Shown here one piece after another: positions 699 to 31,266 of a stretch of 36,449 nt of DNA. The notes beneath the pieces are model-generated. The model had not been told where the DNA came from. It saw only the letters and a list, made by a program, of their open reading frames with translations, and did no database searches. Location: positions 1-36,449 of the forward strand of contig JANTFR010000005.1 in the NCBI GenBank assembly GCA_024763355.1. Direction: 5' to 3'. A program made the translations under genes and the position numbers. The stretch comes from Anaerolineales bacterium. Its GTDB lineage: Bacteria > Chloroflexota > Anaerolineae > Anaerolineales > DRKV01. The first letter of the stretch is position 1, and the number at the start of each line of letters is the position of its first letter.

Positions 699-892
699 GA
701 TACCCGCAGTGCAGGCAAATGCAGCGGCAAAAATCAGCGAGAATCGGCGTTCAGACCTCCGAGATTTTGCAGGTGCGATGCTCGCCCGGAGCGGCATGCA
801 CAGGCGATTACGCTTCCCAGTGCGGCTCTTGGCGGAAATCTCGGAGGTCTTTACCCCCCGGCAGGATAGCGTGTGCCCTCCAACACGTCTTT
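699..892. repeat. Dispersed intergenic repeat, copy 1 (interrupted by 753-850 element)
   Basis: GATACCCGCAGTGCAGGCAAATGCAGCGGC... and CCCGGCAGGATAGCGTGTGCCCTCCAACACGTCTTT both recur near 8254-8367. Confidence 0.75.
753..850. mobile_element. Putative MITE-like element with 15-bp terminal inverted repeats
   Basis: AGACCTCCGAGATTT (753-767) and AAATCTCGGAGGTCT (836-850) are exact reverse complements; absent at the equivalent point of repeat copy 2. Confidence 0.5.
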
Positions 893-2129
893 AGCGCTCT
901 CTCGGCGCTTCTCCCGCCCCCGCTTGCTCCAGGGGGAGATAGAGCGTGAAGCAACTGCCTTTTCCTTCTTCGCTCTCCGCCTCGATGCGCCCGCCGTGCA
1001 GTTGCGCCAGGTCGCGGGCTACCGAAAGCCCTAATCCCATCCCGTTGTGATGCCGCGTCAGATGTCCCTCCACCTGATAGAAGCGCTCGAAGATGCGCTC
1101 CAGGGCGCTGGCAGGGATGCCGATGCCCTCGTCCCGGACGCTAATTTGCGCATAGTCACCACTCTGGGCCTGAGCCAGGGAGACCCACACGTTTCCACCG
1201 CTATCCGTAAAGGCCAAAGCGTTCTCGATGAGATTCTTCAGGATGATGCGGATTTTCTCCGGGTCGCCCTCCAGCACCAGGGGATGGGAGGGCATTTCCA
1301 GGTGGAGGCGAATCCCTTTGGCTTCAGCCTCCCCCCGGAAGGTCTCGCAGAGCGACTCTGCCAGCGTGTTCAGGTTGACGGTGTGAAGCCGCAGGCGCGC
1401 CGTGCCCGTCTGGTAGTTATCCGCCTGGGTCGCGGTCTCGATGATTTCCTTGATGCGCATGGCGCTCTGGATGATGACGTCCACGTGTTCTTGCGTGGAT
1501 GCGTCGGCGGCTGTGGCCTGTAAAAATGTGGCGTGTCCGACCACCAGCCCCAGCGGGGTGCGTAATTCGTGGGAGGTGATGGCGATGAACTCGTCCTTGC
1601 GGCGCTGAAGGGCTTCGATTTCCGCTTGCAGGTAGCGTTTTTCGGCGGCGAGATTCTGGATGAAGGCCGGCCATGCCAGCGCTTTCCCCAGGGAGCGGAG
1701 GCGGGCGAGGGAGCCGCACGAAAGGGGCGCAGCCATCCGGGGGTAGGCGGCTATCAAAAGGCCGAGGCGGTACTCGCGGTGTTCCACCGGCAGGACGGCG
1801 ATGCCTTCCAGGGGCGCGTCTTCTTCCAAAAAAATGGGACGTCCTTCCCACGCCTCGCAGGCAGGAGGGGGATAGGCTAGGATTTCCCCGTGATGGAAAG
1901 CCCGCTGAAGTCCCTCCACGAGGAGTGGCGCCTGTACCCATTCCCGCACGGCGGGGGGAACGGCGGGGGCGAAATACCATCCCAGCGGCACGGCATCGCC
2001 CGCCGAGGGAAAAAGTACCAGTATCCCGAAGGCGTCTTCGAGAAGGGCCAGCAGGCGGCGGATGGTTTCCTCCGGAGGCAGGGTGCTGCCTTCCAGAAGT
2101 GCGGCGGAATCGGAGAGGGTATCGGTCAT
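891..2129 (-). CDS. Sensor histidine kinase (HisKA + HATPase_c)
   Basis: FIAITSHELRTPLGLVVGHATFL H-box; NLIENALAFTDSGGNVWV N-box; ISVRDEGIGIP G1; GMGLGLSVARDLAQLHGG G2. Start taken as MTDTLSD; the ORF extension to 2315 overlaps the divergent promoter region. Confidence 0.9.
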   Translation of the reverse strand: MTDTLSDSAALLEGSTLPPEETIRRLLALLEDAFGILVLFPSAGDAVPLGWYFAPAVPPAVREWVQAPLLVEGLQRAFHHGEILAYPPPACEAWEGRPIFLEEDAPLEGIAVLPVEHREYRLGLLIAAYPRMAAPLSCGSLARLRSLGKALAWPAFIQNLAAEKRYLQAEIEALQRRKDEFIAITSHELRTPLGLVVGHATFLQATAADASTQEHVDVIIQSAMRIKEIIETATQADNYQTGTARLRLHTVNLNTLAESLCETFRGEAEAKGIRLHLEMPSHPLVLEGDPEKIRIILKNLIENALAFTDSGGNVWVSLAQAQSGDYAQISVRDEGIGIPASALERIFERFYQVEGHLTRHHNGMGLGLSVARDLAQLHGGRIEAESEEGKGSCFTLYLPLEQAGAGEAPRER

Positions 2130-3433: not shown

Positions 3434-3468
3434 CAACCACCCAACCACCTGACTACCCGAGGTTCCCT
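3434..3468 (+). repeat. Short period-8 array upstream of alcohol dehydrogenase ATG
   Basis: CAACCACC CAACCACC TGACTACC followed by CGAGGTTCCCT-ATG. Confidence 0.6.
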
Positions 3469-8176: not shown

Positions 8177-8226
8177 GCGGGAGTACGAAAAGGCTGTTGG
8201 AGGAAATCCGCCCGACCTGGACGAAA

Positions 8227-8367
8227 GAACGCGGATTGCGCAGATTTCACGCAGATACCCGCAGCGCAGGCAAATGAAGCGTCGAAAATCAGCGCGAATC
8301 AGCGTGCATCAGCGCCATCAGCGTTCTGCTGCCCGGCAGGACAGCGTGTGCCCTCCAACACATCTTT
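8227..8367. repeat. Dispersed intergenic repeat, copy 2
   Basis: GATACCCGCAGCGCAGGCAAATGAAGCG and CCCGGCAGGACAGCGTGTGCCCTCCAACACATCTTT (34/36 identical to 857-892); internal ATCAGCG units at 8288, 8298, 8308 and 8317. Confidence 0.8.
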
Positions 8368-8391
8368 GGTGCTGCCCCCTGAACGAAGCGC

Positions 8392-9824: not shown

Positions 9825-9835
9825 AGGGACGTGCC

Positions 9836-9930
9836 CGCCCGACCAGGCGACTACCCGACAACCTGACCGCCCAACCACTTGACTACCCGACTACCCGACT
9901 ACCCGACTATCTGACTACCCGACTACATCC
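9836..9930 (+). repeat. Octamer tandem array immediately upstream of lon ATG
   Basis: 11 in-phase 8-mers: CGCCCGAC CAGGCGAC TACCCGAC AACCTGAC CGCCCAAC CACTTGAC TACCCGAC x3 TATCTGAC TACCCGAC, then TACATCC-ATG. Confidence 0.95.
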
Positions 9931-12435
9931 ATGTACAACGACGATTTTGATTGGGACGACCCCTCAGAAGACTGGGATGAGGAAACCTTCTCTCCAGAGG
10001 ATGAAGATTTCTTCACCCTTTTACAGCAGCGTACCGATGAACTCTACGCCATCCCGGATGCCGAACCGGATGAAGATGGCACCATTACTGCTGCCGTGCT
10101 CCCGCTGCGGGATGTAGTGGTTTTCCCGCGGATGGTCTCCCCCGTTTTTGTGGGGCGTTCCGTTTCCCTGCAAGCCATCGAGGCGGCGCAGAGGCGGGGA
10201 GAGACGATGATAGCCCTCCTGCAGAAAGACCCGCAGGTGGACGACCCCTCGCCGCAGGATTTCTACTCCATCGGTGTGGAGATGGCCGTGGGGCGGCTGA
10301 TACGCGTCCCTGATGGGGCCAGGGCCGCGCTCGTGCAGGCGCGCCGCCGCCTGGAACTTGTCCACATCACGCAGGCCGATGGGTACTTCCAGGCTAAAGC
10401 CCGGATTGTGAGTGAGTACATCGAGATAGACGAACAGGTGCAGGCCAACATGCGTACCGTGTTGGCCCTTTTTGAGCGCGTCGCCCAACTCAACGATGCT
10501 ATCCCCGAAGACGCCTACCTGTTTGCCATGAACATTGACGAGCCGGGCGTGCTGGCCGACATGGTAGCGACCTCGTTGAACATTAGTTTGAGTGACCGCC
10601 TGGAACTTCTTTTCATGTTCAACCCCCTCAAGCGTTTGGAAAAAGTGCTTTCATTGCTCAACAAGGAATTGCAGGTACTCGAACTGAGCGACGAAATCCA
10701 GAACCGCACCCAAACGGAGATGGACCGTTCCCAGCGGGAGTATTACCTGCGCGAGCAGATGAAGGTCATTCAGTCCGAACTGGGGGAGGGCGACCCCTGG
10801 ACGCGGGAGGTCAACGAACTGCGCGCCAAAGTCGAGGCGGCGGAACTCCCCGATGAAGTGCAGGCCCGCGCCCTGCGGGAGGTGGAACGTCTTTCCCAGA
10901 TGCCGCCCATGTCCCCGGAGGGGGGCGTCATCCGCTCTTACCTGGAGTGGATTCTGGAACTCCCCTGGGCGAATCTCACCGAGGACAACCTGGATTTGAA
11001 GCATGCCACCGAAGTGCTGGAGCGCAACCACTACGGCCTGCCCCGCGCCAAAGAGCGCATTCTGGAGTACATCGCCGTGCGCAGCCTCAAACCGGAGAAA
11101 GCCGCCCGGCAGCCCATTTTGTGCTTTGTAGGCCCGCCGGGAACGGGCAAGACCTCCCTGGGACGCTCGATTGCCGAAGCGCTGGGACGCAAATTCGTGC
11201 GCGTCTCGTTGGGCGGAGTGCGCGATGAAGCCGAAATCCGCGGCCACCGGCGCACCTACATCGGCGCGCTGCCCGGACGTATCCTCCAAACCATCCGCCG
11301 GGCCGGGACGCGCAACCCCCTCTTCATGCTGGACGAGATTGATAAACTGGGCAGCGACTACCGCGGCGATCCCTCCTCTGCCTTGCTGGAAGTCCTCGAC
11401 CCGGAGCAAAACCACGCTTTCTCTGACCACTATCTGGAAGTACCCTTCGATCTTTCGCAGGTTATGTTCATCACTACGGCCAACACGGAAGCCACCATCC
11501 CGCCTGCCTTGCTCGACCGGATGGAAGTCATCGAATTTCCCGGCTACATCGAGGAGGAGAAAGTCGAGATTGCCCGCCGTTTCCTCATCCCCCGCCAAAT
11601 CGAGGAAAGCGGTCTGGAGCCGAAAGAAATCCACTTCTCCGCGGGAGCCTTGCAGCGTATCATCCGGGAATATACCTACGAGGCCGGAGTGCGTAACCTG
11701 GAGCGGGAAATCGGGCGTGTCTGCCGCAAAATCGCCCGCCTGAAGGCTGCCGGCAAGCCCTATCCCTCGCAAATCACCGCCGCCAGCATGGAGAAATTCC
11801 TTGGCCCGCCCCAGTTCTTCAATCAGGAAGCGGAGCGCGAGGACGAAGTCGGGGTGGCGACCGCTCTGGCCTGGACGCCCAACGGGGGTGAAATCATGCC
11901 CGTGGAGGTGCAACTTGTCCCCGGAAAAGGCAATTTGCAAATTACCGGCCAGATTGGCGACGTGATGCAGGAATCCGCCCAGGCCGGGATGACGTATCTC
12001 AAGGCGCACGCGGACGAATTCGGGCTGGACAGCGAGATATTCGACCAACTAGACGTTCACATCCACATCCCCGAAGGCGCTATCCCCAAGGACGGCCCCA
12101 GCGCGGGCGTGACCATCGCCACGGCGCTCATCTCGGCCTTCACGGGGCGTCTCGTGCGGCACGATGTAGGCATGACGGGCGAGATTACTTTGCGCGGGCG
12201 CGTCCTGCCGGTGGGAGGCGTGCGCGAGAAGGTGCTGGCCGCCCATCGTGCCGGTATCAAGACCATCCTCTTGCCGGAGAAAAACCGCAAAGACCTTGTG
12301 GATATTCCCAAGAAGGCGCGCAACGACCTCAACTTGATTTTCACCCGCCGCATGGAAGACGTGTTGAGGGAAGCCCTGCTCCCTGACGTGGTTCAGCCGC
12401 CTCGTTTGCCGAAACGCGAGGCCGAGAACGATTGA
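9931..12435 (+). CDS. lon: ATP-dependent protease La (Lon)
   Basis: LPLRDVVVFPRMVSPVFVGR, GPPGTGKTSLGRSIA Walker A, FMLDEIDKLG Walker B, PKDGPSAGVTIATALISA catalytic Ser. Confidence 0.98.
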   Translation: MYNDDFDWDDPSEDWDEETFSPEDEDFFTLLQQRTDELYAIPDAEPDEDGTITAAVLPLRDVVVFPRMVSPVFVGRSVSLQAIEAAQRRGETMIALLQKDPQVDDPSPQDFYSIGVEMAVGRLIRVPDGARAALVQARRRLELVHITQADGYFQAKARIVSEYIEIDEQVQANMRTVLALFERVAQLNDAIPEDAYLFAMNIDEPGVLADMVATSLNISLSDRLELLFMFNPLKRLEKVLSLLNKELQVLELSDEIQNRTQTEMDRSQREYYLREQMKVIQSELGEGDPWTREVNELRAKVEAAELPDEVQARALREVERLSQMPPMSPEGGVIRSYLEWILELPWANLTEDNLDLKHATEVLERNHYGLPRAKERILEYIAVRSLKPEKAARQPILCFVGPPGTGKTSLGRSIAEALGRKFVRVSLGGVRDEAEIRGHRRTYIGALPGRILQTIRRAGTRNPLFMLDEIDKLGSDYRGDPSSALLEVLDPEQNHAFSDHYLEVPFDLSQVMFITTANTEATIPPALLDRMEVIEFPGYIEEEKVEIARRFLIPRQIEESGLEPKEIHFSAGALQRIIREYTYEAGVRNLEREIGRVCRKIARLKAAGKPYPSQITAASMEKFLGPPQFFNQEAEREDEVGVATALAWTPNGGEIMPVEVQLVPGKGNLQITGQIGDVMQESAQAGMTYLKAHADEFGLDSEIFDQLDVHIHIPEGAIPKDGPSAGVTIATALISAFTGRLVRHDVGMTGEITLRGRVLPVGGVREKVLAAHRAGIKTILLPEKNRKDLVDIPKKARNDLNLIFTRRMEDVLREALLPDVVQPPRLPKREAEND

Positions 12436-26783: not shown

Positions 26784-27668
26784 CTAGGGAATCAGCAGTC
26801 CGGCGGCAAAGAGTAGGGCGTAAAGCAAGGTCAGTTGGCCGGTGCCGGCCAGCGCCTGGTTCAGGATGCGCCCTTTTTGAGTGGCAACCACTTTCCAGAT
26901 TTTCCAGGCCGCGGGGATGGAAAGCAGGGTCAGCAGCGGCCAGGGGGAAGTTTCTCCGCGGAGCCACAGGATGAAGGGGACGAGATAACTGCCAAGCAGC
27001 AGGAGGGCGTATTCGGCTTTCGTGCCGTTTTCTCCCAGGCGTACCGCCACGGTGTGTTTGCCCGTCTTGCGGTCGGTCTCGATGTCCCGCAGGTTGTTGA
27101 CCACCAAAATGTTTGTGGTCAGGAAGCCCATCGGGAGGGCGGCCCACCACGCCAACGCAGGGACGGCGCGCATCTGCACGAAGACTGTCCCGCAGACTGC
27201 TGCCAACCCGAAGAAGAGGAAAACGAACAGGTCGCCCAGGCCGTGATAGCCCAAAGGGTAAGGGCCGCCGGTGTAGGCAATCGCCGAAAGGATGGCGGCT
27301 ACACCCACCACCAGAATCGGCCAGCCGCCTGCCGAGATGAGGTACACACCCAGCAGGGCCGCCAGCCCAAAGGAAACCCACATGCCGGCGAAGACCTGTT
27401 GTAAACTCAGCAGGCCGGTCTGGGTGACGCGCACGGGGCCGAGACGCTCCTCCGTGTCGGCGCCTTTCTGGAAGTCGTAGGCGTCATTGGCGAAGTTCGC
27501 CCCGATTTGAATGAGGAGCGCCCCGAAGAAGGCCGCCAGCCAGGGCAGCAGGCGGAAGCCGCCCTGCGCCGCGGCGACTGCTCCTCCTACGATGACGGGC
27601 GCCGCGGCCGCAGGGAGGGTTTTGGGGCGGGAAGCGAGAATCCAGGGGTTTTGGTTTATTGGTTGCAT
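26784..27668 (-). CDS. menA: 1,4-dihydroxy-2-naphthoate polyprenyltransferase (UbiA family)
   Basis: [73 protein letters not shown]. Confidence 0.93.
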
Positions 27669-27740
27669 TGGTTCATTAGTTCATTAGTTCATTGGTTCGT
27701 TGGTTCGTTGGCTGGCTGGTCGGTTGATTCGTTCGTTGGT
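27669..27740 (-). repeat. Octamer tandem array immediately upstream of menA ATG
   Basis: Nine in-phase 8-mers (+ strand): TGGTTCAT TAGTTCAT TAGTTCAT TGGTTCGT TGGTTCGT TGGCTGGC TGGTCGGT TGATTCGT TCGTTGGT. Confidence 0.93.
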
Positions 27741-27878
27741 TCACCGGGGCCTGACGCCGCTGCGCATTGTGCGGGACAACCTCGCCTTCCCCGTACCACA
27801 ACGCTCTGTGTTGTGCTGTGCGGGACACACTCGCCACTCCGCACCTCCTGACCCGCAACCCCCTAACTTCGCAACTCC

Positions 27879-31217: not shown

Positions 31218-31266
31218 GTGAGGTGAGGTGACAGTCACTTGCGAAGTGACTGTCACCTCACCTCAC
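31218..31266. repeat. 23-bp perfect inverted repeat with GCG loop
   Basis: GTGAGGTGAGGTGACAGTCACTT-GCG-AAGTGACTGTCACCTCACCTCAC. Confidence 0.95.

Follow-up and report, generated by a model that had tools for sequence, protein, structure and literature searches.

A near-invariant hairpin, possibly a captured REP-like doublet, at the centre of an ISL3-like MITE in an Anaerolineales bacterium

Results

The window, by which we mean the whole 36,449-nt stretch of Anaerolineales DNA analysed here, is part of contig C5, one of 285 contigs of a 2.76-Mb genome that is 91% complete. Near its left end, at the 3' end of a histidine-kinase gene, a 98-bp hairpin lies between two remnants of a dispersed repeat termed MITE2, and a complete copy of this repeat is found further along the window. 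The features are as follows.

700 to 752, plus strand: left remnant of the host MITE2, ATACCCGCAG...AATCGGCGTTC, with the 5' TIR missing (alignment with eight other copies)
753 to 850, plus strand: 98-bp hairpin core, the element first reported (copy counts in its own genome and the sister species; fold z -5.9)
753 to 767, plus strand: left 15-bp invariant arm, AGACCTCCGAGATTT (sequence comparison of copies)
836 to 850, plus strand: right 15-bp invariant arm, AAATCTCGGAGGTCT (sequence comparison of copies)
851 to 857, plus strand: TTACCCC, right-flank remnant of the parent MITE, which reads TTACCCCACAAATC...AGAGCC in full copies (comparison with full copies)
857 to 901, plus strand: right remnant of the host MITE2 with the 3' TIR retained (...CCAACACGTCTTTAGCGCTCTC), CCCGGCAGG...TTTAGCGCTCTC (sequence comparison with MITE2 copies)
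891 to 893, minus strand: TAA stop codon of the histidine-kinase gene, from the MITE2 terminus (ORF 891-2315 minus; orthologue in G001, a genome of the same genus)
8179 to 8376, plus strand: complete MITE2 copy lacking the 98-bp insert, flanked by CCCTGAGC/CCCTGAAC (empty-site comparison)

The two arms are exact inverted repeats enclosing 98 bp, as the initial annotation had reported, and a 15-bp inverted repeat at these positions is far beyond chance. Whether as RNA or DNA, the 98 bp fold far below their shuffles (0 of 200 shuffles), and the arm pattern, allowing up to two mismatches, occurs 65 + 62 times in the genome against 3 + 2 for the reversed control. A BLAST search for further copies in the host genome, proposed in the initial annotation, recovered four of the 98-bp form (on C5, C25, C57 and C90), and the sister species HyVt-449 carries at least nine complete ones. 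A 66-bp relative with arms AGACTTCCGAGATTT is present in about 45 copies in the own genome, the remaining core copies including some minis of 32–51 bp; the 98- and 66-type arms differ by a C-to-T change that is matched on both arms. The architecture of the core is that of two nearly invariant 15-bp sequences, inverted, flanking a variable spacer of fixed length. At one locus (L080 951-1146, C151:2950-3145) the left arm and the 66-bp core are duplicated in tandem with a 98-bp period, and the right outer arm is absent exactly from the core edge.

The arms are far better conserved than the sequence around them. Across 23 aligned full 66-type copies they show one change in 690 sites (0.14%), compared with divergence from the consensus of 12% in the outer arms, 17% in the core spacer and 27% in the left outer spacer. 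This conservation is independent of selecting copies with intact arms, because it is also seen in 21 copies located through nothing but their right end: both arms are perfect in 19 of them, a single change is found in another, and the last (C3:17165) carries a matching change in both arms. Mismatches between target-site duplications (TSDs; 7/160) predict about 13 arm changes in 20 copies where one is observed (P 3e-5), a rough estimate which suggests that the arms are under constraint after insertion.

The unit that moves is longer than the hairpin. It has the form GGGTCAACGYGGAATTGTGGGGTA-8 nt-core-TTACCCCACAAATCTGNGNAGAGCC and measures 123 bp with a 66-bp core and 156 bp with a 98-bp core; its ends read GGGTCAACG.../...AGAGCC, or more fully GGGTCAACG/GGCTCTNC. 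Of the 58 copies of the core that the own genome contains, 25 have both outer arms, seven the left alone, three the right alone and 23 neither. Copies with both outer arms have imperfect, GG-ended TIRs of about 24 bp, and exact 8-bp TSDs adjoin 13 of the 22 two-ended copies, with a single mismatch in another five. Blindly scanning each fetched locus for an 8-bp TSD together with GG...CC TIRs gave 15 hits, against one when the TSD was displaced by 3 nt; nine of the 15 are the parent MITE, in the own genome or in the more distant genome S139_47, one is MITE2 and one is another hairpin-cored MITE. The parent element combines the short non-coding copies, TIRs and constant-length 8-bp TSDs of a MITE, whereas the 98 bp alone lack such TSDs: a search for them, suggested earlier, was rewarded at the full copies, but none adjoins the 15-bp arms. 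The insert had been taken for a non-autonomous MITE, and it does belong to a mobile element that is repeated and non-autonomous, but the 15-bp repeats are not its termini.

In genomes of the same order, ISL3 elements end in GGCTCTCCCG, GGCTCCTCGC or GGTTCTCCCG, with exact 8-bp TSDs at four of those examined. Because these ends and TSDs are similar, we name the parent element ISL3-like; it shares with them GG-ended imperfect TIRs and the 8-bp TSD, the TIRs themselves being alike in part only. An ISL3 transposase (PF01610) is absent from the own genome, 91% complete, which counts against this reading, and we therefore do not claim membership of the family. A transposase with matching TIRs, as anticipated in the initial annotation, was not found. 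Likewise, no autonomous element joining a transposase to matching ends emerged, and none was seen at the left-end orphans C33, C70, C80 and C198.

MITE2, the repeat that hosts the window copy, is 198 bp long with ends GGGAGTACGAAAAGG...TCTTTAGTGCTCCC; its 8-bp TSDs are exact in one copy (AAATTCTG) and match at 7/8 positions in three. All eight other aligned copies, that at 8179-8376 and seven elsewhere in the genome, are without the insert, which extends the single empty site first noticed. The 98 bp thus neither lack other copies nor occur in every copy of the surrounding repeat, the two findings that were to tell against an insertion. The proposed insertion into an older repeat stands in so far as the host is itself a MITE with TSDs, but this MITE2 copy is not intact, and the insertion is not confined to the 98 bp: TTACCCC is also present, and the host repeat has lost about 18 bp as well as TGCTG, together with its 5' end. 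The final two bases of the left remnant, TC, are assignable to either element, and TC and CCC at the junctions are common with the lost MITE flanks. No TSD had been seen at this copy because both true ends of the parent MITE are lost. In G001 the histidine-kinase orthologue ends about 12 residues earlier and neither repeat follows the gene. A second case in which parent MITE and MITE2 are joined is a chimera (L149 1881-2061, C45:15880-16060) where a MITE2 copy contains the leftmost 38 bp of the ISL3-like MITE. Elsewhere in the window, 8-bp units (ACTACCCG; GTTCATTG) form intergenic tandem arrays at 9829-9940, 3436-3460 and 27663-27742, apparently different units in one style.

When the 123-bp consensus was searched against 150 relatives, several matches were returned in HyVt-449 and a short match in only two other genomes. 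HyVt-449 has many copies of the 156-bp form, and full copies in the two species have extended flanks in common on both sides. The Anaerolineales MAG S139_47, from another family, holds one copy with an exact TSD (GCTGTCAT), for which horizontal transfer or misbinning are both possible. G001 carries an 82-bp element with ends GGCTCATGTGTAGAATCT/GGCTCATCTGTAAAGAGT, TSD TCGGGAGA and a different core hairpin (CAACGTGACAGTCACTTC). Therefore, among the sequences examined, hairpin-cored ISL3-like MITEs occur at least twice, their cores differing. The core of the 82-bp element is a GTGACAGTCACTT hairpin, which also flanks a Y1 transposase gene at locus L250 of a relative. A lone, perfect 23-bp hairpin at 31218-31266 of the window (GTGAGGTGAGGTGACAGTCACTT/AAGTGACTGTCACCTCACCTCAC) is of the same class as these two.

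Relatives of the core occur beside Y1 transposase genes. Compact 33-bp versions with nearly the same arm (AGACCTCCGAGRTYT) are present in 30 of 151 genomes of the order, the reversed control giving almost no matches. In genome G099 AGACCTCCGAGGTCT palindromes lie on both sides of a Y1_Tnp gene (L225 1024-1599, minus strand), which scores 29.8 bits with PF01797, above the cut-off, and 63.7 bits with the RAYT model NF047646, below its cut-off of 80. This ORF also contains an in-frame AAGACCTCGGAAACCTCGG stretch after its HYH motif, resembling the in-gene REP insertions of a RAYT subclass (PMC6006769). A perfect hairpin is located within 200 bp of the gene at 18 of 30 loci homologous to the G099 gene, and noncoding hairpin density is 26 in 4.2 kb near Y1 genes versus 3 in 8.4 kb elsewhere (P ~3e-23). 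Six of the ten Y1 genes at least 50% identical to that of G099, and none of 20 others, are flanked by hairpins of the AGAC[CT]TCCGA type (P 0.0004); hairpin and such genes also co-occur across genomes (P 3e-6, a statistic that ignores genome relatedness). In G084 (L240) the version adjoining a Y1 gene is 62 bp long, which is close to the 66-bp core, and has a spacer of about 30 nt.

In the core, two conserved REP-like sequences face each other in inverted orientation across a spacer and form a hairpin, and hairpins beside Y1/RAYT genes in relatives are near-identical, not identical, to it. The canonical GTRG foot (5' GT[AG]G) is absent, the feet reading GTTC, GGTC, AGAC, AAAA and others, and we therefore do not class the core as a REP. 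The 36-nt core spacer holds no convincing covariation or covarying structure, which counts against a REP doublet within a MITE, and at E 1e-5 neither the own genome nor that of the sister species has a homologue of the hairpin-flanked Y1 gene as cognate RAYT. The own genome does encode an intact RAYT at L187 1429-1956 (C2, ~30.9-31.5 kb; NF047646 83 bits), 155 bp upstream of the genome's only compact AGACCTCCGAGGTCT hairpin; it was dropped as the cognate of the core as it has its own, different REPs, of GGAGTGCGGCAT type. A further Y1 match lies at C115, but it is fragmentary and lacks a nearby hairpin.

Discussion

Our results provide a model in which the 98 bp are probably the hairpin core of an ISL3-like MITE, the core representing a captured atypical REP doublet and the window copy having lost its outer arms. 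The GG-ended ~24-bp TIRs and 8-bp TSDs mark the 123/156-bp units as having inserted whole through a DDE-type transposase acting in trans. The core may descend from an atypical, REPIN-like REP doublet that was captured at the centre of the MITE, as its sequence likeness and gene neighbourhood suggest, and may then have been amplified together with it, with the arms preserved because selection acts on the hairpin or a binding sequence. The simplest history of the window copy would be a nested insertion followed by loss of its ends through short homologies: a 156-bp MITE would have entered the MITE2 copy at the 3' end of the histidine-kinase gene, and short-homology deletions (TC, CCC) would then have removed both outer arms, leaving the core and TTACCCC.

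The 23 copies that lack both outer arms have breakpoints close to the core, which counts against movement by the MITE only, and they fit either deletion or independent movement of the core. It is unlikely, though worth weighing, that the core moves independently as a REPIN-like element, its hairpin being moved as single-stranded DNA by a Y1 (HUH) transposase that leaves no TSD; the window copy would then have entered MITE2 directly and the ISL3-like MITE would be one landing place among others. The core sequences of the arm-less copies are as fresh as those of full copies (e.g. C73:5248), the compact versions in the order are nearly all without the MITE, and the hairpins flanking Y1 genes point the same way. 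However, neither a fixed insertion tetranucleotide nor a clean empty site was found, no cognate Y1 gene turned up in the own or sister genome, and TTACCCC of the MITE flank is retained in the window copy and around a dozen other copies without full arms. Because of this retention, deletion is favoured for those copies, that of the window included.

A hairpin maintained by the host as a transcription terminator or mRNA-stabilising element, and conserved for its RNA function, appears improbable. The strong fold, the position of some copies right behind stop codons (e.g. C1:11991, C2:12599, C55:2377) and an arm conservation exceeding the age given by TSD mismatches are all in keeping with such a role, but the hairpin moves with a transposon, the region has no T-run or terminator-like site, and it matches no Rfam family, only tRNAs reaching the gathering score in that search. 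An intrinsic terminator, with a G+C-rich stem and T-run, is therefore rejected. The remaining model, in which the 98 bp are themselves a MITE with the 15-bp repeats as TIRs, would account for the exact termini, the constant 98-bp length and the several copies, but is largely refuted, and highly improbable, because TSDs lie outside the longer element rather than beside the arms, and the flanks common to full copies of two species extend on both sides.

Among known systems, ISL3-derived bacterial MITEs are likewise short and non-coding, with GG-ended imperfect TIRs, 8-bp TSDs in A/T-rich sites and tens of copies; here, in contrast, the genome yielded no ISL3 transposase, and the perfect 15-bp hairpin at the centre is much more strongly conserved than the TIRs. 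REPINs, or REP doublets, and their RAYTs (PMC3116915; PMC6006769; PMC8266576) provide the second comparison, as relatives of the core flank Y1 genes. A REPIN consists of two invariant, mutually inverted sequences of about 16 bp that form a single hairpin and are separated by a spacer which varies in sequence but not in length (PMC3116915), a layout matched by the two invariant 15-16-bp sequences of the core around its fixed-length spacer. Unlike REPINs, the core has no GTRG foot and no cognate transposase found in the genome, and it is mostly carried within a MITE having TSDs. Y1 subclasses 2.6 and 3 have atypical hairpins without GTRG (PMC6006769) and are possibly nearest to the core. REP-targeting insertion sequences such as ISPpu9 (PMC8450116) also associate a palindromic repeat with an insertion sequence; there, however, the insertion sequence sits inside the REP, whereas here a REP-like hairpin sits at the centre of a MITE. 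Searches of open-licence papers for ISL3 MITEs, Anaerolineae MITEs and REPIN-MITE composites brought up nothing of this kind.

More speculatively, and with considerable doubt, the family may be a hybrid element in which a single-strand hairpin unit of the Y1/RAYT type is fused to a double-strand transposon of the ISL3 type and spread by two unrelated systems. Such a hybrid would recur, since the 82-bp MITE of G001 has a different hairpin core that also flanks a Y1 gene. MITEs, REP/REPIN hairpins and Y1 transposases, usually treated apart, are here joined in one family from a little-studied bacterial lineage, which offers a natural case of a core and ends evolving at very different rates (0.14% versus 12%). 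If both systems do move the core, this would explain why copies occur with and without TSDs, and the spread of REP-like hairpins would become directly testable.
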